Below are positions 32,100-48,824 of a stretch of DNA of 64,000 bases, piece by piece. Source of the stretch: Roseivirga sp. (lineage in GTDB: Bacteria > Bacteroidota > Bacteroidia > Cytophagales > Cyclobacteriaceae); contig JAAWWF010000083.1 of NCBI GenBank assembly GCA_021404565.1, positions 80,747 through 144,746 on the forward strand, given 5' to 3'. Under the pieces are notes generated by a model. It searched no databases and was not told the DNA's origin. It was given only the letters and a program-made list of their open reading frames with translations. The position numbers and the translations under genes are program-made. Positions within the stretch are counted from its first letter, which is position 1; the number at the start of each line of letters is the position of its first letter.

Positions 32100-33455
32100 T
32101 TACTTACCAGCCATTTTGCCCTTAATACCCTCTTCGGGTGTTTCATAAAAGCTCGGAGGAAATCCGTTGAGCTGTCGCCATATCTCGTACCACACTGCCA
32201 CGTTGTCCAACATCACCCAGCCTTTGGTGCCCGAGCCGATTCTCAGCTGCTCAGGCCATGGCTCATCATTAGGGTCGGGAGTAACCAGAATACGGTACTG
32301 TCCACCCACGCTGTTTACCCGGTCAATGACCTTTACCACTCCTCCGAAGGTACCTACGGATACACTGGGCCAACCGGAAAACTGCAGGGCAGGCCAGCCG
32401 TCAAACTGTATTCTCACCTTTCTGCCGGGCTGAATCAAGGGTACATCCAGGGCCTTGACATACATTTCTACCGCCAGATCAGGGTCTTCCGGTGAGATCT
32501 GTACGACAGACTCTCCCTCTTTAATGGTCTCTCCGATACCGGCCTTCATCGCCTTTACGATATATCCATCCTGGGGTGCTATGATCTGATACTGCTCGTT
32601 CCGAATGCTCAGGTTGGCATACTCGTTCTCCAGTTTGGTCAGAGATGCCTCAGACTCAAATACATCCGCCAGGGTATTGCTCAGGTCAGACTGTGCCTTA
32701 CTGATTTTGTCTTTGTACTCAGCCTCTACCGCATTAATGCCTACGGTAGTGTTAATCACCTCGGTCTTACTCTCCAGAAATTTGTTCTCAGCACTTATCT
32801 GCTTCATTTTGGAGGCCTGATACTTTGACTCAATCTCCTGAAACTTGGTCAGTGCGATATTCCCGGCATCAAAACGCCTTTTGTTCCTGCCGAAAATATT
32901 TTCCTGGTTAGCAAACCTTACCTTTTCAGCCTCATAATCCACACTGTCACTTGTCAGCTTAAATTTTGATTGCTGTAGCTTGTTAACAGCCTGCTGCCTT
33001 TTAGCAATCAGTAATGACTCCAATGCCTCAATCTGATTTTCAAGTGCAGAGGCCTTTTCTCTTTTTGAAGCAATGCCTCCACTCTTGGCATCAATCTGAT
33101 CCTGCGTTCTGCGTAAAAGCTGCGGATCGAAGTATTTGTCTTTTACCTCAGATAGGGTAAGTATGGTATCTCCCTTATTTACAAACTCCCCTTCGCTTAC
33201 CTTCCAGGAAGATATTCTACCGGCAATGGCCGTTTCAACAGATTGTGGCCTTTGTGAGGGTGAAAAAGCGGTAAGCTTACCCTTTCCCCTGATGTTTTGC
33301 TGCCATGGGAAAAAGAGCAGGATAAAGAACAGGAAGGTAACCGTCATCAACACCTTGGCCAGTACTTTACCCGCATTGGGGGTCTTCAATGTCTTGAATA
33401 AAATGCTCTGATCGTTCAGTTCATTCACCCGGTTATTTTTTGATAAGTTCAGCAT
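32100..33455 (-). CDS. HlyD-family periplasmic adaptor
   Basis: The 451-aa protein has a cytoplasmic N-tail, one membrane helix (about residues 33-50, VLMTVTFLFFILLFF) and a lipoyl-like half at about 68-100 (AGRISSWKVSEGEFVNKGDT). A long coiled coil (about 115-270) and the second lipoyl half (APQDGYIVKAMKAGIGETI at about 295) follow. A beta-barrel segment includes GRKVRIQFDGWPALQF. This is the adaptor of type I-like export or multidrug systems. It is encoded between the ABC protein (4-nt gap) and the TolC protein, so it links inner and outer membrane components. Confidence 0.92.
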   Translation of the reverse strand: MLNLSKNNRVNELNDQSILFKTLKTPNAGKVLAKVLMTVTFLFFILLFFPWQQNIRGKGKLTAFSPSQRPQSVETAIAGRISSWKVSEGEFVNKGDTILTLSEVKDKYFDPQLLRRTQDQIDAKSGGIASKREKASALENQIEALESLLIAKRQQAVNKLQQSKFKLTSDSVDYEAEKVRFANQENIFGRNKRRFDAGNIALTKFQEIESKYQASKMKQISAENKFLESKTEVINTTVGINAVEAEYKDKISKAQSDLSNTLADVFESEASLTKLENEYANLSIRNEQYQIIAPQDGYIVKAMKAGIGETIKEGESVVQISPEDPDLAVEMYVKALDVPLIQPGRKVRIQFDGWPALQFSGWPSVSVGTFGGVVKVIDRVNSVGGQYRILVTPDPNDEPWPEQLRIGSGTKGWVMLDNVAVWYEIWRQLNGFPPSFYETPEEGIKGKMAGK

Positions 33456-33459
33456 GGCT

Positions 33460-35634
33460 TCAGACTTTGATGATTTTGTTGAGATAACCTGCCGACAGCA
33501 GTTCCGGATAAGTACCCTCTATGGCAACCGTACCTTCTTCCATCAGGATAATTCTATCACAGGCCGCCATGACCATAGGGTCGTTTGATACGGCCACCAG
33601 GGTACACAAAGCTTCTTCGGTCACCAGTTGAACCAGCTTCTCCTTTTCCGAGCGCTGGAAGGAACCAAAGAAATCGTTTAGAATCATAAGCCGTGGCTTT
33701 TTCACCAGGCATCGCGCCAGAATAAGCTTGCTTACGAAAGAACTGGAAAAGCCCTTTCCTCCACTCAATATATTGGTATTCAACCCATCGGGGAGCATGT
33801 TGATTTTATCTGCAAGGCCTACCTTGGCGATAGCTTCTACAGCATCACGGGTAGATACCTGTGGCTTACCCACTACGATGTTTTCCAGAATGGTACCCTC
33901 GAAAATATCTTCCGTGGATACGTTTTTGGCCATCTTATCACGCAAATTGGCAAGGTCCAGATCCCTGAGACTATATTCATTAATAGTCAGGGCTCCCTCG
34001 AACTTTTGATTAATACCCGCTACAGTATTGGTAAGGGTGGTTTTACCAGATTCATTACCACCTGAAATACATACCTTTTCTCCGCAGGCAAAGCCGGTAT
34101 TGATGTTGTGAATCGCTGGTTTGTTAGCTCCGGGATAGGTATAGCTCAGGTTTCTGATTTTCACAGAAAACCCTTTGTTCATGTCTTCTTCGTTCAAATC
34201 AATACCACCGATTTTTTCCAGAGGCAGATCAGTTACCTGGCTTATTTTATCCACGGCCGTGAGCATGTCATATACCACATCCATGTAGGTAATGATCTTC
34301 TCTACAGAGTTGAGAATAAGGATGATGATTACCTCAGAAGCGACAAACTGCCCCAGGGTTATTTCTCCATTGATGACCAATCGGGTGCCTATGATCAAAA
34401 GCCCGCCAGTAATAACTGCCTTAAAAAGCACAATATAAATGTACTGGTTGACCAACACCTTAAAGTGGGTTCTGCGATTGATCAGGTAGCTATTTACATT
34501 GTACTCTGTCTTTTTAATAGGGAGGCTGGTGTTCCCTGAAATCTTGAAAGAATTGAGGGTACGTGCAATTTCTTCCAGCCAGTACACCACCTTATACTTA
34601 TACATAGACTCATTGATAGAGGACTGTAGCCCTCTGGGGCCCGTTAGTCTGAAAATGATAACCAGGGTAAGTACCAGCACCAGCCCGAAAAACACAAAGA
34701 AGGCATGATAGAAGGACAGTAGCAGCAAGCCAAATAAGATCTGAATCAGGCCTGACATTAAATCACCCAGCAACTTAGGCAAGCCTTTCTGGATAGTGAG
34801 TACATCGAAGAAGCGGTTGACCAGCTCAGGTGCGTGTAGCTTGTCAAGAGATTCTACCTTCATGCGGGGAATCCGGAAGGTGAATTCCATGGCCGCCTTG
34901 GTAAAGATTCTCCGCTGTAGGTATTCTACCAGGGTGATCTGCATTACCTGTAAACCTCCTGAAGCAAGTATCCCCAGCAGCACCAAACCAATTAAGAGAT
35001 AGATTGAACTAAAGACTACTCCTCCGGAAACCAGCTCCACTGTGGCCTGTATGCCCAGTGGCAATGTAAGGGAGACAATTCCTACAAAGGCCGCATAAAC
35101 AAAGATGTAGAAGATGTCTTTGCGCTCTTCACTCAATAACCTGAATAGACGCTTTACCGGAGACAATTTCTGTCCTTCCTCATCACCTTCATGTTCGGAA
35201 ACCAGGCTCTTATAACTAAATGCTCCCAGGAGCATTACTTCACCTTTTTCGTTTTTAATCAATCGGTCTTCAAGCCCTTCAAATGCTACTTCCTCTGTAC
35301 TTTGTCCATTGACAATCAGCGCTTTCGTTACCCCCCTTTTGCCTTTATTGAGGATCACCGGTAAAAAAGAGCCCTCTGTCTGGTAAAAGGCAATCATGGG
35401 AATCTGTACTTCCTTCACGAATGCCCTTAGATCCTTTATCTCCAGGGTCTGGTCGAGCAATACTACTCGCACCTTGTTGGCCGATTCTATAAGGTCTCGC
35501 TTAAATTCAAAAGCCTCATCGATACCGTAACGTTTGGAGTTGATATGCAGGTCTTCAAACAGGGCTTCCTCCAGGGTTGCTTCCAGCAGCAGGGCTGTCT
35601 CCTTAATTGTATTGGCTATGTGTTGATTGGTCAT
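33460..35634 (-). CDS. ABC exporter subunit with C39-like N-terminus and degenerate ATPase motifs
   Basis: The 724-aa protein has an N-terminal globular domain (1-150, without a peptidase Cys), a six-helix exporter domain (about 175-460) and an ATPase domain (about 490-724). Walker A is intact (GGNESGKT, K531) and the signature is LSGGKG. However, the Walker B Asp and catalytic Glu positions read ILND (N653, D654), the switch-His position reads SND (N684), and the Q-loop Gln is Ser. The nucleotide-binding domain may thus bind but hardly hydrolyse ATP, or work with atypical chemistry. Context (HlyD and TolC genes directly downstream, TetR upstream) supports an export system. Cargo is unknown. 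Confidence 0.88.
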   Translation of the reverse strand: MTNQHIANTIKETALLLEATLEEALFEDLHINSKRYGIDEAFEFKRDLIESANKVRVVLLDQTLEIKDLRAFVKEVQIPMIAFYQTEGSFLPVILNKGKRGVTKALIVNGQSTEEVAFEGLEDRLIKNEKGEVMLLGAFSYKSLVSEHEGDEEGQKLSPVKRLFRLLSEERKDIFYIFVYAAFVGIVSLTLPLGIQATVELVSGGVVFSSIYLLIGLVLLGILASGGLQVMQITLVEYLQRRIFTKAAMEFTFRIPRMKVESLDKLHAPELVNRFFDVLTIQKGLPKLLGDLMSGLIQILFGLLLLSFYHAFFVFFGLVLVLTLVIIFRLTGPRGLQSSINESMYKYKVVYWLEEIARTLNSFKISGNTSLPIKKTEYNVNSYLINRRTHFKVLVNQYIYIVLFKAVITGGLLIIGTRLVINGEITLGQFVASEVIIILILNSVEKIITYMDVVYDMLTAVDKISQVTDLPLEKIGGIDLNEEDMNKGFSVKIRNLSYTYPGANKPAIHNINTGFACGEKVCISGGNESGKTTLTNTVAGINQKFEGALTINEYSLRDLDLANLRDKMAKNVSTEDIFEGTILENIVVGKPQVSTRDAVEAIAKVGLADKINMLPDGLNTNILSGGKGFSSSFVSKLILARCLVKKPRLMILNDFFGSFQRSEKEKLVQLVTEEALCTLVAVSNDPMVMAACDRIILMEEGTVAIEGTYPELLSAGYLNKIIKV

Positions 35635-35648
35635 TGACGCTTAGGGTT

Positions 35649-36323
35649 TTAACCGATGGTCTTTCTGATCATTTCAAGCAGAAATACAATGTTCTCTGAA
35701 TGAACTCTTCCGTCAGCAGCTTTGTGCTCGGTAAGTGAAGGCAGATGTTCTGCGAAAAACACCTGCTGATGCGAAGCCTCAAGCATGGTGCTTATCAAGG
35801 TATGGGCATAGAGGTAGTCGGGATTGATTTCCAGAACAATGACAGCAATGCGTTTGCAGAGTGATTTAAAGCCACGAAACAGGCCTTCTTTGTTATCCTC
35901 ATCTACCTGTTTGGTGTGATAGGTTTTGTCTGATTCATTGATCACGATTCTTTGCAAGGCCACTTCATCCACCGAGGGAAACATAGGATCAGCCACTTTC
36001 TTTTCTCCCACCAGTCTCACTGCAATGGCCAGGCGTTCCTGAGGATCAACTACATTATTGGTCTCATACTCGATTTTATACTCCAGCCAATTCCAGTACC
36101 AGGCTATGAGGTACACCAGAAGTCTGTGTTTGTTTTCGAAATAGCGATAAATAGAGGCCTCAGTAGACTCGATTTCCACAGAGAGCTTCTTAAAAGTGAA
36201 TTGCTCCAGCCCCATCTCTTCTATCATACAGATGGATTGGGTGATGATTTTCCTACCAAGCTCTGTATCCTGAGGGTCTCTCAAATACAGGTTATCGTTC
36301 ATTTCCAAGCGTAAAAGCGCCAT
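35649..36323 (-). CDS. TetR/AcrR-family transcriptional regulator
   Basis: The 224-aa protein has the N-terminal TetR helix-turn-helix at about residues 25-70 (FTFKKLSVEIESTEASIYRY, then FENKHRLLVYLI), and an all-helical ligand domain. It is the first gene of the operon with the ABC, HlyD and TolC genes (14-nt gap to the ABC gene), so it probably represses its own export system in response to a small molecule. A palindrome 40 nt upstream is a candidate operator. An internal ATG eight codons on (MNDNLYL) is an alternative start. Confidence 0.9.
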   Translation of the reverse strand: MALLRLEMNDNLYLRDPQDTELGRKIITQSICMIEEMGLEQFTFKKLSVEIESTEASIYRYFENKHRLLVYLIAWYWNWLEYKIEYETNNVVDPQERLAIAVRLVGEKKVADPMFPSVDEVALQRIVINESDKTYHTKQVDEDNKEGLFRGFKSLCKRIAVIVLEINPDYLYAHTLISTMLEASHQQVFFAEHLPSLTEHKAADGRVHSENIVFLLEMIRKTIG

Positions 36324-36494: not shown

Positions 36495-36517
36495 AAAAAA
36501 AGCCACTCCCCAGTGGC
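36495..36517 (-). terminator. intrinsic terminator of the candidate RNA
   Basis: On the minus strand GCCACT-GGGG-AGTGGC (36517-36502) is followed by seven Ts (36501-36495). It is a textbook Rho-independent terminator and fits only a minus-strand transcript coming from the ORF-free region. Confidence 0.9.
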
Positions 36518-37128
36518 TCTTTTCTGTATTTTTAAAAATACCCCCAAATAACAAAAGCGGGGGACAATTGCTTGCCCCCACTCATCCTGCATCGACCGTA
36601 GTCATTGCAGAATACCAAGTTACTGTTCAGAACTTCGTCCTCCGTACAATGGCCCAAGCTATTGTCTGGTGGAGTCTGCCTTTTTCCAGCTTCGCCCTAT
36701 GCATACACTCAGTGTAATACAATTAAAATGAAGCATGCAGTTTGAGAGAGTTACCTGCTCGGCAGGCAATTCCCGGACTCTTTACTCAATCATCTCCGAA
36801 GATTTGATTGGGCTGATCCCGCTTTCTGTCGGCATTCCCGAAGGAATTTTGACATTGCGCTGATCAATGGGCTGTCCACCGTAGTTTTCCACCCAAGTCC
36901 GCCAAAGTGATTACCCTGAAGTGCTCACTCTGGGTAGCTTTTTCAACACCTGCTCCGAAGAGCCTGCATCGCCTAGTTCTACCTTCCACATGAATACCGA
37001 GGCATCATGCTTCTGCTTTACTGTCTCAGAACGTCATCTTGCGATTCCGAACCTTTCACTACCATTTTCCGAGCTTCCCCCGAAGAGAGACTGAAGTTTT
37101 ATCTTCTGTTCTTTATCCCTCACTTGGT
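36495..37128 (-). ncRNA. candidate ~630-nt structured non-coding RNA (unknown family)
   Basis: No ORF of useful length exists here on either strand. On the minus strand I see several stable hairpins: GCUC-UUCG-GAGC (36952-36963), AUUCC-UUCG-GGAAU (36834-36847) and a longer CAAUCA/UGAUUG stem capped by UC-UUCG-GA (36787-36810). There is also a GGGGG/CCCCC stem with a GCAA tetraloop (about 36556-36577), and CCUGC/GCAGG and UACAC/GUGUA triloop stems. Three cUUCGg loops in about 200 nt are hard to explain as chance. A promoter lies just upstream (37133-37163) and a strong intrinsic terminator at 36495-36517. It does not carry conserved blocks of RNase P RNA (GAGGAAAGUCC), tmRNA or a group II domain V. 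The 5' end is estimated from the promoter. Confidence 0.65.
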
Positions 37129-37132
37129 ATAC

Positions 37133-37163
37133 CTAAGGTACCCTTAATAACTTTACATGCAAA
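37133..37163 (-). promoter_or_regulatory. Bacteroidota-type promoter for the candidate RNA
   Basis: On the minus strand TTTG (37163-37160), a 19-bp spacer and TACCTTAG (37140-37133) match the -33/-7 consensus (TTTG, TAnnTTTG) with one mismatch. Transcription would start near 37128. Confidence 0.65.
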
Positions 37164-37179
37164 CTTTCTAACTATCTAG

Positions 37180-37247
37180 TTTTCAACAAGTTTCCCACCG
37201 ATTTATACACAGGGTTATCAACAGGGTTATCCACCAAGTTATCCACA
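37180..37247 (+). other. head-to-tail array of DnaA-box-like 9-mers, candidate replication origin
   Basis: Four clear boxes on one strand start exactly 12 bp apart: TTATACACA (37203), TTATCAACA (37215), TTATCCACC (37227) and TTATCCACA (37239). The last is a perfect DnaA consensus. Two weaker relatives, TTTTCAACA (37180) and TTTCCCACC (37191), extend the array to the left. An AT-rich stretch (about 37144-37180) abuts the left end and could be an unwinding element. The whole lies in a ~950-bp ORF-free interval. Alternatively the array could be a DnaA-controlled promoter region for the adjacent RNA gene. Confidence 0.65.
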
Positions 37248-37282: not shown

Positions 37283-37732
37283 CTACTGATTCACGGTAAT
37301 GGTATAATTACCGGCTATGCCTTCTCCATGATTAGCAGTGCCTGCATTGCCATCTGAGGTAAAAGTGAAGACAAAACTGGTTTCAGTAAGGGTGACGATG
37401 GTGATGGTTTTGCCATCATCTACTGATAGTTGCTGTGCTTCTTCATCAGTCCACTGCCAGGTACCACTGGCACGGAACATATCTCCGGCATTGGTGGTGC
37501 TATAGCCTCCATCGGTAAAGGAGAAGGCAAAGCCGGTGAAGTTGGCTGATGCATCCTGTCCATCGATGATAATGCTGCCGCCCTGGGTAAGGTCCCAGCT
37601 TCCTGATAGCTTTTCAAAGGCCAGTTGCTGGGCCGTGGGATCATCTTCACCACCACAGCCTGTGGTGAAGATGATGAGTGTGAGTAGAACTGTGAGTCTG
37701 AATATTTGTCTGTATATGGATTGCTTTTTCAT
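37283..37732 (-). CDS. small lipoprotein, lipocalin-like
   Basis: The 149-aa protein has a lipoprotein signal with lipobox TTGC (Cys26) and the following GGEDD, a surface-export-type acidic tail. The mature part is beta-rich (KLSGSWDLTQGGSIIIDG, FSFTDGGYSTT, ASGTWQWTDEE), with the GSW opening typical of lipocalin-like domains of Bacteroidota. It lies 7 nt downstream of the giant surface protein gene, so the two are probably co-transcribed. It could be an accessory factor at the outer membrane. Ligand and role are unknown. Confidence 0.85.
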   Translation of the reverse strand: MKKQSIYRQIFRLTVLLTLIIFTTGCGGEDDPTAQQLAFEKLSGSWDLTQGGSIIIDGQDASANFTGFAFSFTDGGYSTTNAGDMFRASGTWQWTDEEAQQLSVDDGKTITIVTLTETSFVFTFTSDGNAGTANHGEGIAGNYTITVNQ

Positions 37733-37739
37733 GCTTGTC

Positions 37740-40700
37740 TTATTTTCTGATCATGATTTTCTTTTGTACGGTGCTGCTGCCATCGGTAAACTGTACCAGG
37801 TAAAGACCATTATGGTATTGGGAGACATCGAGCTTCAATGTGGGCTCTTTGTATTGGCTGATGTCAAAGGTTTTGATGCCTGACATATCATAGAGCTGAA
37901 TATCCAGCGCTCTGCCATTGTATTTGGACAGGTCTATGGTGACTATGTCGGTGGCAGGGTTTGGGTATACATTGATCGACTCTGCCTTGAGCAGGCCATT
38001 GTCTACTGAGGTGATAATGGCTCCGTCTGCTGTGACTGTGAGAATACCGGTGCCTCCATTGGTAATAATGGTGACATCGCCTGTATATACCTGGGCTACT
38101 GTGGGGGTAAAGTTAAGGGTCACTGTCTGACTGGAGGCTGGTGCTACTGTAATGCCGGATACCGGGCCACCAAAGGCGGTTGGGTAAAGAATGCTGCTCA
38201 CATTCAGCGTGGCATCGCCATCGTTGTGGATGATGATATCAAAGGTGGTCGTGATACCCAGTGGGGTGGCAGGGATATCGTTGTTACCGGTGATACGCAA
38301 ATCGGCTTCGGCCACATTGTCGATAGTGATCGTGAAGGCTTTTTCAAAGGTGCCTCCTCTCCCATCATCGGTCTGAATGCGGATATTATAACTCGCCTTC
38401 GTTTCCAGATCAAACGCTTCGGCTGCTTTTAGCTCGTCTCCCGCTATGGTGAAAGAAGCATTGTCTGTATCGCCTGTGCCTGCTACCAGGCTATAGGTAT
38501 GGGTATCGCCTGCATCGTCATCGGTGCTGCTCAGCATGGCTACTACATCGCCTATGGCATTGTTTTCCAGGATGCTGCTGGCTGACAGACTGATATCGGT
38601 GGGGGTAAAGTTGGTATTGTATACCTCTCCTGTAAAGGTAGCCCCCAATACATTACCTGCTACGTCAGTGATACCGCTAATATCACTCAGGATCAGACCG
38701 AAACTGCCTTCTCCAGTGATATTGTCTACCGTGACGGTAATACTGGTACCGGAACTGGCTGAGACACTGGCGACATTGGCGCTTTGGGTATCTGTTAGTG
38801 CAAGGGAGAAGTTGCTGGTACTCAAACCATGTACTTCTTCGCTGAAAGTGACCGTATAATCTACACTGCTCGCTGCGGTTGGGTTAGGGTCTGCCCTGGT
38901 GATACTTTGTACTGTTGGTACCACCGTATCAATGGTTATCAGAAAGGTATTGGTATTGGGACTGGCATTTCCTGCTGCATCCGTAGCCGTAATGAATATG
39001 GTGATAGAGCTGCTAAAAGGCCTGAAAGTTACATCTGCCGTCCAGTCACCGTTGGCATCTGCTGTGGTCGTCTGCAGTGTAAAGGGGCCCGCTCCTACTA
39101 TAATTGTTGCAAAGGGCTCTGCCGTACCGGTATAGATAAGAGTCGGATCGTTGGTGATGATATCGGTACTACTAATTCCGTTATCATCTGAGATACCACT
39201 CAATACCGGATCAACCGGAGTGACTGTGTCAACAGTCAGGGCTAATACTGTACTTAAAGTACTGGTGTTTGTGGCGGCATCGGTGGCGTTGGCTGTGATA
39301 CTGTAGCTGGCATCTGCCAAAGTGGTAGCTGAATGGTTATAGCTCCAGCCGCCTGAACCATCGGTAGTAGTCGTACCAATGCTGCTTCCATCAATAAAGA
39401 CTTCTACTGTGCTGTTGGCTTCGGCTGTTCCGGCAAAGATCAGGGTATTGTCACTCGTGATGTTATCTGCAGAATCTGAACCAGTGTCGTCCGACATACT
39501 GGTGATCACAGGGGTGGCAGGGGCTGTAAGATCGGCCTGGATAGAGAACTGTGCAGCTGCAGTGTTATCATTACCAGCGGCATCCTGAGCAGAAGCAGCA
39601 GCTAAGTCTATCGTAACAGCGCCATCACCAGTCGGAGTCACAGTAACCGTATACACTGCTCCGGAACCAGAGAGATTAGCGGCAGTGCTATTGAGCAATG
39701 TCAAATCAGCCAGGCCTAGCCCGGTTATATCTTCAGAAAAGGTGAGCGTAATATCGAAAACTCCATTGATGGGATCATTGGCCGTACTGGTAATAGTCAC
39801 GGTAGGTGCGATCTCATCATTTTCAATACTCAATTGCGTAGCGGCTGTGTTGTCGTTACCGGCTCCATCTTGTGCCACGTTGGCTGGCACATCTACGGTA
39901 ACTGTACCGTCAGCTGATGGGGTAATGGTAACGGTATAGCTAGTTCCCGACCCTGCAAAGCTACTGGCCGTTCCGTTTCCTACTGATATATCTCCCAGGG
40001 TAAAATCTGTTACAGCTTCATCAAAGGTGAAGGAGGCTGTAAAGGCTCCGCTGACAGGATCACCAGCCGTAGTGCTGATGGTAACAGTCGGATCAGTCTC
40101 ATCATTTTCAATGCTGAACTGAGTGGCGGCTGCGTTGTCATTGCCTGCGGTATCCTCTGCTGCGCCTGTGTTGATGTCTACCGTGACCGCGCCATCGGCT
40201 GATGGGGTGATGGTGGCTGTGTAACTCGTACCTGAACCGGCAAAGTTGCCTGTTACTCCATTACCTACACTAATATCGCTTCCATCAAAACCGGTCACAG
40301 CTTCTGAGAAAGTGATCGTGATATCGAAAGCTCCGGCTATCGGATCACTGGCAATACTGGTTATGGTGACGGTCGGGGCTGTTTCATCATTCTCCAATGT
40401 GATAGTATTGGAAGCGGTATTATCATTACCAGCCAGGTCCTGTACAGAATTAGCCGGCAGGTTTACTGTGACGGTACCATCAGCAGCCGGGGTGATGGTA
40501 ACTACATAAACTCCACCGCTTCCCGAAATTGCAGTTGCACTGCCATTGGTGACAATGAAGTCTCCGGTGGCTATGTTCATTACGTCTTCTGTAAAAGTGA
40601 CAGTGATATCGAAAACTCCACTATGAGGGTCGTTTGCCATTGTGGTCAATGTGACATCGGGGGGAATCACATCCAGTAATATCACCACACCGGTACCATC

Positions 40701-43700
40701 CGTGGTCAGATTGTTCCCTCCAAAGTCTGATATCTCATTATTGTTATTTGTATAGCTAATGGTGAGCTGCGTTACGGCTGTGCTCAGATCGGCTACTGTC
40801 AAAACAATCTGGTTATCACCTGCGATACCATCGGCCTGGGCACTTACGGTAAAAGGCGTATTGTTATCATCTACTATGGTGAAATCTGTCGGGTTGGTCT
40901 CATTGGTCTGTACAAGTTCGCTGAAAGTCACCGTAATTTGCGTATCACTGTTTTTTACAGCGCTTAACATCGTGGGAGCAGAATTGTCAAAATCCGCTGT
41001 TACTCCTACCGCATCAGTTTCCACAAAGGAGCTTCCTGTAGAAGTATCTGATATCTCATTATTGTTATTGGTATAGGTGATGGTCAGGTCTCCTATGGCA
41101 TTGGAGAAATCGGTAACGGTCAATACGATATCCGTATCTCCGGCAATGCCATCAGACTGTGCTGCAACGGCAAAGGTATTGCCCAGAGCATCTGTCACCA
41201 CAAAATCAGTAGGATTTCCTCCATTGGTCTGTACATTCTGGCTGAAGCTTACTACAATCTCTGTATTGCTGTTCACCACAGCACTGACCATTTCCGGAAT
41301 ACTCATTTCTCCCAGATACCAGAACCATTCTCCGGGCTGATAGCTGGCCAGCATTACGTCTTTAATACCATCTCCATTGATATCTTCAAAATCGATGGAA
41401 CCCCTGGTACGATTGCTGTGAGATTGAACTCCTAATGGATAGGCCACATCAGCCAACACATCGGAAAATTCGGCTGCTGTTGGAGTTCCGACATTCTCAA
41501 GCACTTTTACTATTCCCTTAATGTTCTGGAAGTACATGTCATAATCACCATCCTGATCAAAATCTTCAAATACCGGAGTATCAGCACCTGTGAGCCGGTC
41601 ATGAAAACCTTCAAATTTATAAAAGGGGTCAGTAGCTTGTGGTTCGATCTGAAAATCAGGGTTGGTAGCAGTACCTACATTGGTAAACAAAACCACAAAA
41701 CGATGGAAAGAAAGGATGAGATCCTGATCTCCGTCATTGTCCAGGTCGGCAAATGCGGTGGAAGGCGATCTCAGATTTCTTTCATCCTGAAACTCTCTGT
41801 TGTCTATCACAATGGTCTCTACATTTTTCAGGCCAATGGTACTGTTATCTACCAGGGTAAAAACCGGGTTGGTAGCACTACCTGTGTTCTTCAGGTAGGT
41901 AAACACATCAGTCAGGTTAGAATTAGCCTGGGTATGACCAAAATTAAAAGTAGAACCTAAAATCAGGTCGAGGTCACCATCTGCATCCAGGTCGATAAAG
42001 TTTGGACGCGTTCTGTTACTCAGGAATGGTTCATGTGTCCCCACTAAGGCTTCCAGAGCAGGCAAGACCGACTGCTCCCACAGGGGGGTATCAGCCGTGC
42101 CTTTATTTTCATAATAAATCAGTTTTCCACTGATACCGGTCGAGAGAAAATCGACATCCCCATCACCATCTATGTCTCCCAGGGTCACATTGTTTACCAC
42201 TCCATACAGAGTAGGCATTGTGAGTAGTTCCAAACCTCCGGAATTCGTACCGGGAGGGTCGATAAAAGACCCTCCTCCCTGGTAGGTCCATTTCATATTT
42301 CCTGTGAGCCTGTTCGTTTCAGGTACCGACTGGATCATTGGAATACCGATCGCATCACTCAATAATGGATTCCCGCCAAAATCTTTAACTAACTCCGTGT
42401 TGTTTACATAAGTCAGCGTGACGGTGCCTTCTGCAATTCTAAGCCCATGCACGGTCAGGACAATTTCATTGTCACCTGGAATAACATCTTCCAATGCGGT
42501 TACTTCAAAGTTATCTCCCTGACTGTCAGTTACCACAAAGTTGGCAGCAGTATCATCTCCCAGTTGAACGGGTTCATTGAACGTGACCGTAACTTTATGA
42601 TATTCCAATCTCTCAGCACTTATCATCGCGGGAGCAACATTGTCTGTATCAATCACTACTCCGTAGGGATCTGAGGGCACCGCAACGCTGCCGGTTGCAG
42701 CATCGCTGATCTCATTATTGTTATTGGTGTATTGTACCCTGAGGTCGCCAATGGCCGTACTCAGATTTGCGACAGTTAATACAATGTCTGTATCTCCGGC
42801 CGTACCGTCTGCCTGGGCCGTGACAGCAAAGTCATTCCCCAATCCATCCGTCACACTAAAGTCTCCGGGATTGCCCCCATTGGTCTGTACATTTTGGGAA
42901 AAACTCAGGGTAACTTGCGTATTGCTGTTTTTCACAGCGCCTGCCAATACATCGGAAGTAGGCTTGAGTGTTGCATTTAATCTGATATCATCATACCCCA
43001 TCCGCACGCTGCTCGTGGCCAGTAACCTGAGTCGGACAAATTGGGTACCTTCCGGTACACTTAGTACTACCTCTTCCCACTCTCTTCGGCTATTCCCTAA
43101 ACTTTCCGCATTGTCAGGCAATACATTACCAGTTACCACCAATGGCGAAAAGTCGCTGGCATGATCATAGATCACTTCATAGCCCAGATTGGCATTGTGG
43201 CTGTTTTGGTCCTGCCTGTTAAACTGAAAACTTAACCTGAGCTGATCCAGATCGGTAACATCTATGGCTTCAAAAGTCAATGCGTGAAAGCCCTCATTTT
43301 CTATTCTGCTTGATCTGCCGAAATGGTTATCAGCCAGGTCATGGGCCAGCCAGAAAAAAGCACCTTCTGCACCGGCAGTAATATCTCTGTAGCTATTGGC
43401 TTTGGCCCATACAAAATCACCTACCCCATCTACTGGACTGCCATCTACGTCAAGGCTTCCATCTGAGTTATAGGTTACAGGATCAGAAAGAAAATTCCAG
43501 TTGTCGCTGAATGCTGATTCAAAGCTCTGTTTAAACCAGATGCGCTGGATCAATCTTCCGGTCAGGTCTGCTTCCAGCACTTCACCGGGCAGGCTGACAA
43601 TGGCATCAGCACTGTTGGCATAGGTGAGGGTAAGGTTACCGGTGGCCATACTTAAATCAGCCGTTTCCAGCTCAATAATTGAATCGTCTTCTTCAGAAAG

Positions 43701-46700
43701 GACAGCAGTGGCAACGGCATATACTATGCCTGCATCATCGGTGATATTAAAGTCAGAAGGATCAAGTCCATTAATGGACACTGTTTCGCTCATATCCAGT
43801 ATAACCTGAGTATCTGTATACTGAATGGCACCGTTTATTTGTAAAAATGGTAATACGGGCACAGGTGTATCTGTGGTTTCCAGTAATAGCGACCCCGAGA
43901 CAAAATCACTTACTTCATCATTATTGTTCGTATAAGTCAGGGAGAGTTCTCCTACTGCTCCGGATAAGTCAGCGGTAGCGAGTACCAACTGATTATCTCC
44001 GGCTGTACCATCTGCCTGGCTGATAATATTATAGGTAGTACCCATTTCATCAGCTAACACGAAATCTCCGGGATTGCCAGCATGGGTTCTTACAGGCAAA
44101 TTGAATAATAAAGTGATTTCTGTATTTCCGTCCCAACGGGCATATTGCAGAGCTAATTCTTCTTCTACTTCCACTCCCACATCATCGGTGGCGAGATCAT
44201 TATGACCAAAATCAAATATGCCACCGCGGTAGTTTCCGTAGGTAATGGTCACTATTCCCAAATCTGACCTGATCCCTCCATTGACCGTGAGCGTCAACAA
44301 ATTATCCTTGGCCACATTATCTATGGCTATCGGAGTCACGAGCGTTTGACTGAATTGGTACTTAAGTCTGAAGTCACCACTATTATGAATCAAAAGCTGC
44401 ACGGGTTCGCTCAATACCAGGGTTATTTCGGTATCGGAGCTTTTCAGAGCCGAAAGCATGACAGGAGCCGTTTGATCCAGGTCTACTACTACGCCCTCAT
44501 TGTCCGTAAGTACGGCATCCAGTCCCGTATCAAAATCTGCAACCTCATTGTTATTATTGGTATAAGTTACCTGCAAGTCGCCCACCGCCATACTGAAGTC
44601 GGCCACAGTAAGCAGAATATCTGTATCGCCTGATGTGACATCGGCCTGAGCAGATACCGGATAGTCATTTCCACAACCATCGGTTACGGTAAAATCTGTC
44701 GGATTACCACCATTGGTTTGTACATTGAGTGTAAAACTGACCAAGATCTGGTTAGTACCTACCGGTGTAGCCAAAGTCATTTTAGGAGGAAGTAGTACTA
44801 TAACGCCTGTGGCATCAGTAGCGAGGTCATTGCCTCCAAAATCACTGATCTCTGCATTCGTATTGATGTAGGTAAGGGTCAGGTCTCCTTCTGCGTCTGA
44901 GATATCGGCTACCGTTAATACAATTTGCCGGTCTTCTGTTGTGCCATCTGCCTGCTGTGTGACTCCATAGTTTGTACCCGCTTCATCTACCAGGGTAAAA
45001 TCACCGGGATTCCCTCCCTGGGTTCTTACCACATCATCAAAAGTGACGGTAATCTGTGTATTAGTATTTCTTTTGGCCCCGACTATAACAGGTGCATCGG
45101 TATCAGCATCCACGATGACTCCGGCAGCATTGGAAGTAGCAATATCCACCCCGGTGGCAAAGTCTGTGATCTCATTATTGTTATTAAGATAGCTGAGGTT
45201 TAAATCTCCTATAGCCGTGCCCAGGTCGGATACGGTCAGTACAATATCCGTATCTCCTGCAGTTCCATCAGCCTGAGCGGTTACCGCAAAATCGGTGCCC
45301 AGGGCATCTTTTACCACAAAGTCTCCGGGGTTGCCACCATTGGTACGCACATTAGCAGTAAAGCTAGCGGTCAGCTTTGTATCACTGTCTTTGATGCCAC
45401 TGGCCAGAGAAAATAAGGCTTCAGAAGGCCCAAAGAAATAAGCGGCTCCAGCCAGGCTAAGAGGATTTTCTCCCCTCAGGTCGGTGCGCTGGTTTTGTGC
45501 TCCAATGAGCATATTGGGACCATCTATAGAGATATCCCGCCCAAACTGGTCACTAAGGCTTCTGTCTGAAGGAACAATTTTCCTGACTTGTGACCAACTT
45601 CCATCAGCGGCCTGTTCAAAGAGGTAAACCGCCCCCGCCTGAGTGATTTCTTTGGTACCATTGGCATCTGTCTCATTGATAGGACTGCCTATTGCAGCAA
45701 AGCTACCTTTGATCTCCACTCCCAAACCAAAGGTTTCTTCTTCTCCCCGGTCAGAAGCTACCAACTTGGCTACCTGCGACCAGGTATCATCAACAGCTCT
45801 TTCAAAGATATAGGCGGAACCACTTCTGTTGATGGTGTTGGCACCATTCTCATCTTCACTCTCAAAATGTGCACTGGCTATGATCAGGTTGCCGCTCATG
45901 GCCAATTGGTGGCCCAGGAGGTCGGCCTCGTCCCTGTCTGCATGTACCAGTTTCTGAGAGAAGATCCAGGTGCCTGATGCTTCTCTTTTATAAACATATA
46001 CCGCGCCTGCCGAGAGTATAGTATTGGCCTCATTGGCATCTTCATCCTCACCATAAGCGCTGATAGCCGCATAATCTCCGTCAATGGCTACTCCTGAGCC
46101 AAAGCGGTCTTCAATGGTTTGCACAGGTGATACAATTTTCTGTACCTGTGCCCAGCTACCATCAGGTGCTTTTTCGAAAATATAAGCCGACCCGGCATTT
46201 CTGATATTGCCCTGACCATTCTCATCCGTATCATCAACATAAGCAGATACAACAATATAGTCTCCACTTATGGCTACTTCATTTCCGAAGCCACTACTTT
46301 GCGTACCATCTGAAGCACCTATTTTTTTTTTTTCAGACCAGGTACCGTCAGGGGCTTTTTCATAGATATAAGCGGCTCCGGCTCTTACTGTGGTGTTTTG
46401 TCCGTTGACAAAGCCGTTGGCACTGGGGGCTCCCACCACAATATAATCTCCGCTAATCCCTACTGAAGTACCAAAACGGGCACCAGCCGATCTGTCAGAG
46501 GCTACTATCTTCTGTACCTCTTCCCAATTACCTTCATTTTCTTCTTTGAAGATATAAACCGAGCCTGCATCCTGCACGGTATTCTGACCGTTTTCATCTT
46601 CTTCTTCTGTAATACTGGCGACAACCGCATAACCACCATCCATATCGAGATCAGCACTAAAAAAGTCACCTGCCGCCCTGTCAGATGCAGTAATCTTGGC

Positions 46701-48824
46701 AAATTCATCCCAGTCTGACCTCATGGCAATTTCTCCCCTCAACGGGCTTTCTTTGGGTACACCGGCCTGGTTACCATCATGAGGGGTTACCTCAAAGCTG
46801 ATATATTTACCGATATCGGCAGAGGTTTGCAGGTAACTAATGCCTGTAGCCCCGGCAATGGCTGCTTTATTTCTTCCGGTCGCATCATCAGACCGGTACC
46901 ATTGGTAGGTTGAACCACTTTCAGTATCTCCGTCAGCATCGAAGTATCTGTAACTCCCTGTGGCGGCTTTACCTTCACTCAGTACTCCACTGAATGTCAC
47001 AAAACCGGCTGACGGTGCTCTTTGAGGGGTGGTTGTGGGAGCCGGGCCAAAGAAATATATGGCACCGGCATCTTCCAAAGGATCGGCTTCTGATGCCCCG
47101 TATTGCTCGCTGGGTGCTCCTACTATTACATGGTCTCCTGTGATTGCAACTGAAAAGCCAAATTCGGCTCTTTCATTGCGTCTGCTGGGAGCTACCATTT
47201 TTTTCACTTCTGTCCAGCCTGAGGCTTCTTTTCGAAAAAGGAAAGCCGCTCCGGGTGATGTATTGGCCAGGTTTTCAGCATTCTCATCTAATTGGTTACC
47301 ATAAGAGCCAATGATGGCCTTGTCACCATCCACCGAAACCGACCAGCCAAAAAAGCCGGTTGTATTCCGGTCTGAAGAAACGAGTTTTACTTCCTCGGTC
47401 CAGGTATCATTATTTTGGTTGAAAACATATACTGCGCCTGCGGCAAACTTGAAGTCACCTCCATTGGCATCGAGTTGTTCTCTGTGGCTTCCCACCATCA
47501 GCACATCACCGTCCATATCCATGCCAATACCAAAATTATCACTATTGCCCCGGTCTGAGGCCACTACTTTCTGATGAAAAGACCAGGTTTTGTCTGTGTT
47601 CTCTTTAAAAATATAGGCAGCTCCTGCATTATTAATGGTGGCTCCTTCATTCTCGTCTTCATCATCAAATATGGCCCCCACGGCAGCATAGCCCTCGCCC
47701 ATCGCTACTGTATGACCAAAGCGGTCTCTGCTATTGGTACCATTGGGGTTGTCGACCCGTTGCACCTCCATCCATGTATCGTCAGGTTGTTTTCCAAAAA
47801 TATAGGCTGTCCCAAGCTCACCACTGATTCCGGAACCATCAGCCGAACCGACTATGGCAAAATCGCCATTCATTGACAAAGAAAAGCCAAACCTACCCAG
47901 CCTCGCAGGGTCAATAGAGCCGGTTATCTGTTGAACTTCAGACCATATGCCTGTCCCGGTGTCTCTCTGAAAAACGTAAACCACACCAAGGTGAGGTGAA
48001 ATGAAATTCAGGTTGGCTCCTACCATAGCGAAGTCTCCACTGATGGCTACTGAAAAACCAAACTGATCACCAGCTTCAGCATCGGAAGCTACCAGTCTCT
48101 GAAATTCGGACCAGTTGCCATCGGCATCTCTTTTATAGATGTAGGCGGCTCCGGCATCTTCCATATTTCCACTATCTTCCTTGTAGACTCCCACGATAGC
48201 ATATTCTCCATCAATAGCCACTTTAGAACCAAATGACTGACCTTCATCACGTTGAGAAGAGGTTATTTTAGTGATCTCATCCCAATCTGTAGCAGCCGAA
48301 ACAGCCCCTGCAAGATCACTCTCCACGGCCAGTCCGGTTTCTCCTCCACTTCGTGGAGTAACTTCAAAGCTGAAGTATTTTCCAAGGTCGTTGATTGTCA
48401 GCTGGTAGGTCAATGCTGTAGCCCCGGCCACCGCTACTTTTCCTGTACCGTCAATATCATCTGAGCGATACCACTGATAAGTCGTTCCGGATTCGGGATC
48501 ATTGTCATCATCAGAATAGCTGTAAGTACCTGCCAATGTCTTGCCTATGTTTAGTGGCCCAATGATGGCCACCTGCGTGGCCCTTGGCAGAGCAGAGGGA
48601 TTGGATAAGTCAAGATGATTTCGTTCAGGTCTACTTATTATCTTACCTGTTTCTCCTATAATCTCCGTAAACCCGTTACCCGCCCTGGCATGGGCAGTAA
48701 CAGCAAAAAACAGCATTAAAATGACCAGTTTCACCAGAGGTGACCATGGTTTAAATGAAAGGCCAAATAATTTACCGGAGCTGTCACCCCGGAAAACCGG
48801 CTCTTTGTTGTAAAAAATATGCAT
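37740..48824 (-). CDS. giant T9SS-exported surface protein (FG-GAP, Ig-like and cadherin-like repeats)
   Basis: This is an 11-kb gene encoding 3694 aa. The N-terminus carries a membrane-targeting hydrophobic stretch (LVKLVILMLFFAVTAHARA, about residues 31-49) after a long basic tail. Order by eye: an Ig-like domain with TYQWYRSDD (about 75-170); FG-GAP-type repeats (FGxSVAIxGDxAIVGA, about 180-595); a second TYQWYRSDD domain (about 600-695); more FG-GAP repeats (about 700-1125); and six or more SwmB-like repeats (SFSQNVQTNGGNPxDF, about 1130-1740). Then come a sugar-binding-like domain (about 1760-1950), VCBS/FG-GAP repeats (about 2175-2510), four TVTITSxA-type Ig repeats (about 2715-3095), two TAEAN-type Ig repeats, a cadherin-like repeat (about 3405) and a T9SS sorting domain at the end (YPNPATDIVTIDL). 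It is likely a cell-surface adhesin. The gene is followed by a lipoprotein gene. Confidence 0.9.
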   Translation of the reverse strand: MHIFYNKEPVFRGDSSGKLFGLSFKPWSPLVKLVILMLFFAVTAHARAGNGFTEIIGETGKIISRPERNHLDLSNPSALPRATQVAIIGPLNIGKTLAGTYSYSDDDNDPESGTTYQWYRSDDIDGTGKVAVAGATALTYQLTINDLGKYFSFEVTPRSGGETGLAVESDLAGAVSAATDWDEITKITSSQRDEGQSFGSKVAIDGEYAIVGVYKEDSGNMEDAGAAYIYKRDADGNWSEFQRLVASDAEAGDQFGFSVAISGDFAMVGANLNFISPHLGVVYVFQRDTGTGIWSEVQQITGSIDPARLGRFGFSLSMNGDFAIVGSADGSGISGELGTAYIFGKQPDDTWMEVQRVDNPNGTNSRDRFGHTVAMGEGYAAVGAIFDDEDENEGATINNAGAAYIFKENTDKTWSFHQKVVASDRGNSDNFGIGMDMDGDVLMVGSHREQLDANGGDFKFAAGAVYVFNQNNDTWTEEVKLVSSDRNTTGFFGWSVSVDGDKAIIGSYGNQLDENAENLANTSPGAAFLFRKEASGWTEVKKMVAPSRRNERAEFGFSVAITGDHVIVGAPSEQYGASEADPLEDAGAIYFFGPAPTTTPQRAPSAGFVTFSGVLSEGKAATGSYRYFDADGDTESGSTYQWYRSDDATGRNKAAIAGATGISYLQTSADIGKYISFEVTPHDGNQAGVPKESPLRGEIAMRSDWDEFAKITASDRAAGDFFSADLDMDGGYAVVASITEEEDENGQNTVQDAGSVYIFKEENEGNWEEVQKIVASDRSAGARFGTSVGISGDYIVVGAPSANGFVNGQNTTVRAGAAYIYEKAPDGTWSEKKKIGASDGTQSSGFGNEVAISGDYIVVSAYVDDTDENGQGNIRNAGSAYIFEKAPDGSWAQVQKIVSPVQTIEDRFGSGVAIDGDYAAISAYGEDEDANEANTILSAGAVYVYKREASGTWIFSQKLVHADRDEADLLGHQLAMSGNLIIASAHFESEDENGANTINRSGSAYIFERAVDDTWSQVAKLVASDRGEEETFGLGVEIKGSFAAIGSPINETDANGTKEITQAGAVYLFEQAADGSWSQVRKIVPSDRSLSDQFGRDISIDGPNMLIGAQNQRTDLRGENPLSLAGAAYFFGPSEALFSLASGIKDSDTKLTASFTANVRTNGGNPGDFVVKDALGTDFAVTAQADGTAGDTDIVLTVSDLGTAIGDLNLSYLNNNNEITDFATGVDIATSNAAGVIVDADTDAPVIVGAKRNTNTQITVTFDDVVRTQGGNPGDFTLVDEAGTNYGVTQQADGTTEDRQIVLTVADISDAEGDLTLTYINTNAEISDFGGNDLATDATGVIVLLPPKMTLATPVGTNQILVSFTLNVQTNGGNPTDFTVTDGCGNDYPVSAQADVTSGDTDILLTVADFSMAVGDLQVTYTNNNNEVADFDTGLDAVLTDNEGVVVDLDQTAPVMLSALKSSDTEITLVLSEPVQLLIHNSGDFRLKYQFSQTLVTPIAIDNVAKDNLLTLTVNGGIRSDLGIVTITYGNYRGGIFDFGHNDLATDDVGVEVEEELALQYARWDGNTEITLLFNLPVRTHAGNPGDFVLADEMGTTYNIISQADGTAGDNQLVLATADLSGAVGELSLTYTNNNDEVSDFVSGSLLLETTDTPVPVLPFLQINGAIQYTDTQVILDMSETVSINGLDPSDFNITDDAGIVYAVATAVLSEEDDSIIELETADLSMATGNLTLTYANSADAIVSLPGEVLEADLTGRLIQRIWFKQSFESAFSDNWNFLSDPVTYNSDGSLDVDGSPVDGVGDFVWAKANSYRDITAGAEGAFFWLAHDLADNHFGRSSRIENEGFHALTFEAIDVTDLDQLRLSFQFNRQDQNSHNANLGYEVIYDHASDFSPLVVTGNVLPDNAESLGNSRREWEEVVLSVPEGTQFVRLRLLATSSVRMGYDDIRLNATLKPTSDVLAGAVKNSNTQVTLSFSQNVQTNGGNPGDFSVTDGLGNDFAVTAQADGTAGDTDIVLTVANLSTAIGDLRVQYTNNNNEISDAATGSVAVPSDPYGVVIDTDNVAPAMISAERLEYHKVTVTFNEPVQLGDDTAANFVVTDSQGDNFEVTALEDVIPGDNEIVLTVHGLRIAEGTVTLTYVNNTELVKDFGGNPLLSDAIGIPMIQSVPETNRLTGNMKWTYQGGGSFIDPPGTNSGGLELLTMPTLYGVVNNVTLGDIDGDGDVDFLSTGISGKLIYYENKGTADTPLWEQSVLPALEALVGTHEPFLSNRTRPNFIDLDADGDLDLILGSTFNFGHTQANSNLTDVFTYLKNTGSATNPVFTLVDNSTIGLKNVETIVIDNREFQDERNLRSPSTAFADLDNDGDQDLILSFHRFVVLFTNVGTATNPDFQIEPQATDPFYKFEGFHDRLTGADTPVFEDFDQDGDYDMYFQNIKGIVKVLENVGTPTAAEFSDVLADVAYPLGVQSHSNRTRGSIDFEDINGDGIKDVMLASYQPGEWFWYLGEMSIPEMVSAVVNSNTEIVVSFSQNVQTNGGNPTDFVVTDALGNTFAVAAQSDGIAGDTDIVLTVTDFSNAIGDLTITYTNNNNEISDTSTGSSFVETDAVGVTADFDNSAPTMLSAVKNSDTQITVTFSELVQTNETNPTDFTIVDDNNTPFTVSAQADGIAGDNQIVLTVADLSTAVTQLTISYTNNNNEISDFGGNNLTTDGTGVVILLDVIPPDVTLTTMANDPHSGVFDITVTFTEDVMNIATGDFIVTNGSATAISGSGGVYVVTITPAADGTVTVNLPANSVQDLAGNDNTASNTITLENDETAPTVTITSIASDPIAGAFDITITFSEAVTGFDGSDISVGNGVTGNFAGSGTSYTATITPSADGAVTVDINTGAAEDTAGNDNAAATQFSIENDETDPTVTISTTAGDPVSGAFTASFTFDEAVTDFTLGDISVGNGTASSFAGSGTSYTVTITPSADGTVTVDVPANVAQDGAGNDNTAATQLSIENDEIAPTVTITSTANDPINGVFDITLTFSEDITGLGLADLTLLNSTAANLSGSGAVYTVTVTPTGDGAVTIDLAAASAQDAAGNDNTAAAQFSIQADLTAPATPVITSMSDDTGSDSADNITSDNTLIFAGTAEANSTVEVFIDGSSIGTTTTDGSGGWSYNHSATTLADASYSITANATDAATNTSTLSTVLALTVDTVTPVDPVLSGISDDNGISSTDIITNDPTLIYTGTAEPFATIIVGAGPFTLQTTTADANGDWTADVTFRPFSSSITIFITATDAAGNASPNTNTFLITIDTVVPTVQSITRADPNPTAASSVDYTVTFSEEVHGLSTSNFSLALTDTQSANVASVSASSGTSITVTVDNITGEGSFGLILSDISGITDVAGNVLGATFTGEVYNTNFTPTDISLSASSILENNAIGDVVAMLSSTDDDAGDTHTYSLVAGTGDTDNASFTIAGDELKAAEAFDLETKASYNIRIQTDDGRGGTFEKAFTITIDNVAEADLRITGNNDIPATPLGITTTFDIIIHNDGDATLNVSSILYPTAFGGPVSGITVAPASSQTVTLNFTPTVAQVYTGDVTIITNGGTGILTVTADGAIITSVDNGLLKAESINVYPNPATDIVTIDLSKYNGRALDIQLYDMSGIKTFDISQYKEPTLKLDVSQYHNGLYLVQFTDGSSTVQKKIMIRK
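46322..46333 (-). repeat. 12-adenine homopolymer inside the giant surface gene
   Basis: Twelve Ts on the plus strand encode SEKKKIG in frame on the minus strand. Such a tract is prone to slippage in replication or transcription and would shift the frame of about 2,860 downstream codons. Contingency (on/off) expression is possible but unproven. Confidence 0.75.

Follow-up and report, generated by a model that had tools for sequence, protein, structure and literature searches.

A structured RNA family of Bacteroidota with predicted DnaA boxes upstream of its candidate promoter

Long, stand-alone non-coding RNAs of several kinds have been described in bacteria. 6S RNA consists of one hairpin, the long RNAs GOLLD, ROOL and OLE are represented by Rfam families, and the sequestering RNAs of the CsrB/RsmY type carry repeats that are GGA hairpins. 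On the DNA side, clustered DnaA boxes are associated with the DARS and datA sites and with DnaA-regulated promoters. For Bacteroidetes, Rfam contains a separate 6S family, 6S-flavo (RF01685), which is listed in PMC2864571.

Here we describe a locus in Roseivirga sp. that encodes a long RNA on the minus strand. All coordinates refer to the window, which is the whole stretch of 64,000 nucleotides that was analysed (GenBank assembly GCA_021404565.1, contig JAAWWF010000083.1, positions 80,747 to 144,746 of the forward strand). We are highly confident that the locus belongs to a real and new RNA family in Bacteroidota.

No Rfam 15 family matched at its gathering score anywhere in the window, and the eight sub-threshold matches between 35800 and 37600 were all far below gathering. 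Nine loci from other genera likewise gave no match at gathering score, and 16 further loci gave none except a TPP riboswitch elsewhere in L184, a locus from a MAG labelled Bacteroidales (4177-4273, minus strand). A previous sequence-only reading of this DNA had found the conserved blocks of RNase P RNA and tmRNA to be absent from the RNA, and both models match elsewhere in the genome: RF00011 once, on another contig (G000:C75, E 1.3e-17, 67.8 of 97 bits, below the cut-off), and tmRNA with its best over-cut-off match at G000:C6 and over-cut-off matches in six of six genomes. A literature search that covered titles and abstract openings, with preprints and most subscription papers outside its scope, returned no description of the RNA. 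The novelty of the RNA is thus bounded, not proven, by the lack of a match to an Rfam family, a housekeeping RNA (RNase P, tmRNA, 6S) or the literature.

Predicted promoter, ends and surroundings of the RNA gene

On the minus strand, TTTG is followed by 19 nt, by TACCTTAG and then by CCAAG from 37127 (Table 1). We take this order of elements to be a Bacteroidota-type promoter, and copies from other genera have TACCTTAG, TACTTTGA or TATATTTG at a roughly equivalent -7 position. A scan for sigma-70-type promoters did not report the candidate RNA promoter at 37133-37163, a miss that is expected for a promoter of a different type. At the other end, an intrinsic terminator with GAGCCACTGGGGAGTGGCTTTTTTT ends at 36495. 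Promoter, terminator and a length of about 630 nt had all been proposed before, and the sequence bears out all three, with 633 nt between the predicted ends 37127 and 36495. The folding energy of the RNA region is lower than that of 20 out of 20 dinucleotide shuffles (z = -5.47).

A GC-rich stem near 36557-36581, previously read as a GCAA-capped GC stem, is present within these ends, and a terminator scan reports its inner hairpin (36579-36560, minus strand). Together with the TTTTGTT that follows, this hairpin corresponds to the end of the RNA in other genera (TTTTTGTTTTT) and is probably the ancestral terminator. Beyond it, the Roseivirga form has added TTTGGGGGTATTT and a second terminator; no equivalent of the extension at 36521..36556 was present in the compared sequences from other genera. 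Within the genus, TTTGGGGGTATTT followed by AAAATAC sits between the two terminator-like hairpins and is invariant in 17 copies.

Table 1. Positions of features in and upstream of the RNA gene (window coordinates)
Feature	Position	Strand	Basis
Predicted DnaA-box array, four boxes	37203-37211, 37215-37223, 37227-37235, 37239-37247	-	12-nt register
Degenerate array unit (TTTCCCACC on +)	37191-37199		12-nt array
Most conserved upstream block, contains GTGGGAAACTTGTTGAAAACTA (37198-37177)	37173..37198	-	genus alignment
-33 element TTTG (CAAA on + strand)	37160..37163	-	sequence and genus alignment
-7 element TACCTTAG (TAnnTTTG-like)	37133..37140	-	sequence, genus alignment and other-genus copies
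RNA gene, 633 nt	36495..37127	-	17 full-length genus homologues and fold z -5.47
Conserved 5' domain	37016..37127	-	alignment and R2; refound upstream of 17/26 other-genus 3' matches
P1 5' strand CCAAG	37127-37123	-	5' domain alignment
P2	37121-37115 with 37091-37085	-	5' domain alignment
5'-domain hairpin	37084-37070	-	5' domain alignment
Further 5'-domain hairpin, weakly paired in the window copy	about 37053-37027	-	5' domain alignment
P1 3' strand CTTGG, after conserved AACAGTA	36615..36619	-	P1 pair types
P7 hairpin, best supported helix of the RNA family	36583..36614	-	covariation
GC-rich hairpin then TTTTGTT, RNA end in other genera (TTTTTGTTTTT)	36557..36581	-	other-genus comparison
Genus-specific extension, invariant TTTGGGGGTATTT and AAAATAC	36521..36556	-	invariant columns, 17-sequence genus alignment
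Final intrinsic terminator, GAGCCACTGGGGAGTGGCTTTTTTT ending at 36495	36495..36519	-	stem bases covary across genus

The gene upstream of the RNA ends at 37283 and the downstream gene starts at 36323. The latter is TetR-like, with a TetR_N match just under the Pfam cut-off, and lies in an apparent minus-strand operon (32100-36323) of a TetR-type regulator, an ABC transporter-like protein and an HlyD-like membrane fusion protein, the last two assigned by eye. On the other side, a small lipoprotein-like open reading frame (37283-37732) adjoins a repeat protein of 3694 amino acids (37740-48824, minus strand), with a C-terminal type 9 secretion sorting domain apparent by eye. When the open reading frames of at least 90 amino acids were compared among 52 loci of up to 8 kb, no neighbouring protein was common beyond close kin, and the largest cluster contained nine of the 52 loci. 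The restriction of these clusters to close kin indicates that the RNA does not belong to a single operon and is not the leader of any one gene.

Homologues and structure across Bacteroidota

With blastn, searching the window's own genome and 58 relatives, the RNA was found in 18 of the 59 genomes, all of them Roseivirga, and in none of the 40 genomes from other genera. A plain sequence search would therefore have missed the wider family. The sole miss among the 19 Roseivirga genomes is G017, which is 80% complete; G008 has a blast match for the 3' part only, yet its locus (L018) contains the 5' end. For 17 of the 19 genomes, full-length copies were aligned, which measure 502-719 nt. Their mean pairwise identity is 0.75 in the 5' domain, 0.68 in the 3' part, 0.35 in the middle and 0.25-0.28 outside the RNA. 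The cUUCGg hairpins on which the sequence-only reading had drawn are present, but they sit in the stretch that is variable within the genus, and the conserved parts are the two ends.

Further searches used three covariance models: R1, of the 3' end and built from the genus only; R2, of the 5' end; and R3, a cross-genus 3' model whose automatic structure holds the P7 helix only. At E <= 0.01, R1 matched 52 of 245 genomes of the family, some of them weakly with E near 0.01, and 23 of 84 genera. For 17 of 26 R1 matches (21 other-genus loci), an R2 match at E <= 0.2 lies upstream and in the same orientation. A DNA pattern of the 5' end, combining the promoter spacing with the 5' end itself, was scanned over public genomes and gave at least 120 stretches and at least 80 loci; among the matches listed, R3 finds the 3' domain in 52 of these, namely in 52 of the 65 loci labelled Bacteroidota or Chlorobiota and in none of the 15 loci from other phyla. 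Each of the 53 R3 matches at pattern loci, again among the matches listed, is on the strand of the pattern and no more than 800 nt downstream of it. Independent probes for the 5' end and the 3' end converge on the same loci. The copies score 34-88 bits with R3 (34-82 for the 52 pattern loci), and the background, taken as the best match in 1.6 Mb of sampled genome sequence with two known copies excluded, is 20 bits.

The searches at the level of family, order, class and phylum used strict filters, by which weak matches are lost. In the order, R3 matched 36 of 291 genomes; in the class, at E <= 0.001, it matched 28 of 395 genomes and 14 of 196 genera, reaching other families that include MAGs labelled Bacteroidales; R2 at E <= 1 located the 5' domain in nine of 26 tested loci from this class-wide search. 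A phylum-wide draw gave matches in six of 395 genomes, all in Roseivirga's own family, which indicates that the distribution is patchy or the detection poor. Among the named carriers are Algoriphagus, Cyclobacterium, Mariniradius, Cecembia, Rhodonellum, Aquiflexum, Cognataquiflexum, Pleomorphovibrio and Marivirga, and also MAGs labelled Flavobacteriales.

Several genomes hold two or more copies. Nine genomes of the f8 family, only 1.2-1.6 Mb in size, carry the RNA (eight of them with two matches, in a tally of carriers and not of the fraction of f8 genomes), which suggests that the RNA is worth keeping in a small genome. Copies are paired at distances of about 0.4-2 kb in L139, L140, L141, L124, L130, L201 and G202 (L125). 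The window's own genome has a second copy (L290, G000:C77:349907-350002), which is divergent and shorter and has a changed P1, TCAGG:CCTGG. L290, L198, L159 and L213 are short and have no exact DnaA box, and two sub-families may therefore exist.

Comparison of the copies shows a closed RNA in its predicted structure: P1 joins the ends, and the other parts are a 5' domain, a 3' hairpin with an intrinsic terminator, and between them a middle whose length is specific to the lineage. Because minimum free energy folds of single copies are unreliable (the fold of L196 differs from that of L123), helices were judged on alignments. Among 102 copies, P1 is CCAAG:CTTGG in 39, TCAAG:CTTGA in 31, TCAAG:CTTGG in 19, CCAAA:TTTGG in seven, TCAAA:TTTGA in three, and TCAGG:CCTGG, CCAAG:CCTGG and TCAAG:CTTGC in one each; since only copies with at least four of five pairs were kept, the pairing rate is no test and the pair types are the evidence.

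For P7, aligned in 36 sequences of which ten are from the genus, 94.8% of cells are paired versus 65.3% in shuffles, and 155 cells show a double change versus 44.8. Four of the five covariation measures were reached by none of 500 shuffles, and the fifth, the number of pairs with a double change, by 48 of 500. The form of about 295 nt was examined by setting an alignment of 19 of the 24 copies in this length class (L132, L270, L273, L274 and L288 were left out) against the minimum free energy fold of L123, a single member, after deletion of an isolated pair. In these sequences, which are related, 81.7% of cells are paired versus 72.8% in column shuffles and 34-50% when the structure is slid, 176 cells are changed on both sides versus 72.5 in shuffles, and none of 500 shuffles reaches any of the five measures. 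Support is poor for two helices in the middle, where 40.8% and 55.8% of the cells pair. The homologues thus contain many compensatory changes, above the shuffle controls.

The distance between the P1 strands falls mostly into 153-175, 210-251, 476-553 and 585-633 nt, and 13 copies are scattered over 302-449 nt. In the 500-549 class, nine of the 26 copies contain two or three instances of an internal module, GARAHGG-NNNN-CCNCAGA, at around nt 97, 315 and 418. These nine, all with 528-539 nt between the P1 strands, are the only ones among the 102 copies to repeat it; the rest have no module or one. Within the 200-249 class, it is found once in 16 of 33 copies and is absent from 17.

Predicted DnaA boxes upstream of the promoter

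The array upstream of the promoter spans 37191..37247 as a whole and contains one exact TTATCCACA and three boxes with one mismatch. Boxes that point the same way in a 12-bp register resemble the arrays of DnaA oligomers. Over the entire window, boxes with up to one mismatch are not enriched (23 versus 17.8 expected, with 23 reached by 11 of 100 shuffles), and the unusual feature is therefore the tight array. Pairwise identity in the 17 genus copies is 0.879 in the block from -70 to -45, which exceeds that of the RNA itself, 0.77 in the promoter stretch and 0.65 in the array stretch from -131 to -70, versus 0.28 further upstream. A double-box pattern has its best genome match at the RNA locus outright in 16 of 19 genus genomes; the match is tied in G012, two of four equal matches are at the locus in G014, and the pattern is absent in G017.

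Exact boxes (TTATNHACA) were counted in the 140 nt that end 30 nt before the RNA start. Of 102 copies, among which 18 are long ones from a single genus, one had too little upstream sequence and was dropped, leaving 101. The mean is 1.50 exact boxes per copy. The corresponding means are 0.022 for 505 control windows from the same loci and 0.058 for upstream sequence after shuffling, and the initial 140 nt of the RNA contain none. At least one exact box is present in 85 of the 101 copies and at least two in 52; without the 18 long copies these values are 69 and 40 of 83, with a mean of 1.40. No exact box was found in 16 of the 101 copies, among them L290 and the short copies L159, L198 and L213. 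When the count was widened a little, it comprised 157 boxes, 144 of them in the same orientation, and the commonest spacing is 12 nt (19 of 58 neighbouring pairs). Judged by eye, the tandem copies in L139 and L141 have boxes at both members.

An array of DnaA boxes beside the RNA had been reported from the window before. The array is real, but the boxes are more than neighbours, as they recur as a component of the locus in different genera. The sequences strongly suggest that the RNA is transcribed from its own Bacteroidota-type promoter, with mostly one-directional boxes about 60-130 nt upstream. Judging from the known consensus, the boxes would bind DnaA, and we consider control of the RNA promoter by DnaA likely.

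Alternative explanations and proposed role

The main alternative in the sequence-only reading was a decayed protein gene whose remnants resemble hairpins, as one minus-strand frame had seemed partly protein-like, and five of the 102 copies do have an ATG-initiated reading frame of at least 60 amino acids (maximum 118). However, the median of the longest such frame per copy is 24 amino acids at 153-633 nt between the P1 strands; the minus-strand frames of at least 40 amino acids that overlap the RNA in the window are 41, 41 and 52 amino acids long, and neither these nor a plus-strand frame of 57 amino acids has a Pfam match at E <= 0.1. With helices that show compensatory changes, a middle that is not conserved and a length that depends on the lineage, we reject the decayed gene as next to impossible, and the earlier suggestion of an uncatalogued RNA is supported by these changes, the absence of an Rfam family and the lack of any sign of a protein. 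The RNA might also stand in, in this lineage, for a housekeeping RNA that is already known, such as a 6S-like inhibitor of RNA polymerase. Such a replacement would be in line with a long closed RNA that has its own predicted promoter and with the lack of a match to the 6S RNA model (RF00013) in six of six genomes of the group, where the control search rings in five of 14. This is quite improbable, given that Bacteroidetes have the 6S-flavo family, that the RNA reaches the gathering score of no Rfam family, that its branched structure is unlike the single hairpin of 6S RNA, and that several genomes have two or more copies.

A replication origin, of the chromosome or of an integrated element, would also suit the DnaA boxes, the conserved block, which is AT-rich, and the start of a 500-700 nt RNA beside the array; the RNA would then be a primer or regulator like RNA II of ColE1-type plasmids. 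A cluster of boxes is indeed present, but GC skew, read in 20-kb stretches of which single samples are noisy, does not flip at the locus in G001, G002, G016, G179 or G153 (for which an R1 match is the sole sign of the copy, and where one sample 100 kb away has the opposite sign); a sign change near the locus in G013 is ambiguous. In G001, the minimum of the cumulative skew within 3.2-3.6 Mb is at about 3.36 Mb, which places it some 1.7 Mb away from the RNA, and dnaA is 2.26 Mb from the RNA. No cluster of strict DnaA boxes was found in that interval; relaxed boxes that are grouped at 3,283,519, at a distance of 80 kb from this minimum, may represent the true oriC. The RNA loci share no mobile genes, the L121 copy matched no plasmid record, the window copy matched no phage record, and none of the seven viral pattern hits has the 3' domain. 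The RNA locus is therefore probably not a replication origin, and the reading with a primer RNA is very improbable. In a related genus, DnaA boxes between dnaB-like and mpl-like genes (by eye; L057, G031:C1:5049582-5049603) are a possible oriC. The RNA points with the G-rich strand in six sampled relatives, and the local skew of the window agrees; with a G-rich leading strand, as is assumed, the RNA would be co-directional with replication. Alternatively, an array that is tight, one-directional, apparently away from oriC and the outright best double-box match in most genus genomes could be a DNA site that titrates or reactivates DnaA in the manner of datA or DARS, with transcription of the RNA used or tolerated and its sequence of little importance. 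We consider this unlikely, because the RNA is under strong structural constraint and L290, without boxes, retains P1 and the 3' domain.

On balance, we find it rather probable that the locus represents a stand-alone, trans-type structured RNA family with a DnaA-controlled promoter, the RNA acting in trans and perhaps binding protein. DnaA would assemble on the boxes and activate or repress the RNA promoter from about -60 to -130, and the position of the boxes upstream of the promoter fits activation. RNA output would then follow DnaA activity in the replication cycle. The RNA itself may work in trans by binding a protein via conserved internal loops or unpaired motifs, as a scaffold or sponge. 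This weaker step is suggested by the Algoriphagus-type copies, in which as many as three instances of the internal module occur, a repetition that would be expected if the RNA sequestered a protein or served as a scaffold. However, with the module repeated in only nine of 102 copies, the sponge idea may not be general, and action by protein binding is a somewhat doubtful proposal.

We speculate, tentatively, that this widespread RNA, its promoter switched by DnaA via the array in 12-nt register, is a modular RNA that informs other processes of the state of replication initiation. To our knowledge, such a replication-coupled RNA regulator has no counterpart. The family adds a large and well-supported RNA class for Bacteroidota, and the DnaA boxes at its promoter, recurring across genera, provide a lead to its function. 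Whether DnaA is the transcription factor that drives a conserved regulatory RNA has become a directly testable question, and the RNA may tie replication to RNA-based control.

Like 6S RNA and 6S-flavo, the RNA described here is a stand-alone non-coding RNA whose ends pair; unlike them, it is multibranched and about 240-720 nt long, and neither matched in the window in Rfam. With GOLLD, ROOL and OLE it shares a long, branched, non-coding and bacterial nature, but it has no Rfam match at gathering score and no phage association that we found, and it has DnaA boxes upstream. As in the sequestering RNAs of the CsrB/RsmY type, promoter and terminator are its own and the number of modules varies, whereas its repeat is a longer module around GARACGG-NNNN-CCNCAGA and is confined to the 528-539 nt class. 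With DARS, datA and DnaA-regulated promoters, the locus has in common a cluster of DnaA boxes that apparently lies outside oriC; in contrast to them, its boxes lie, in many genera, before a promoter that would serve a conserved structured RNA.
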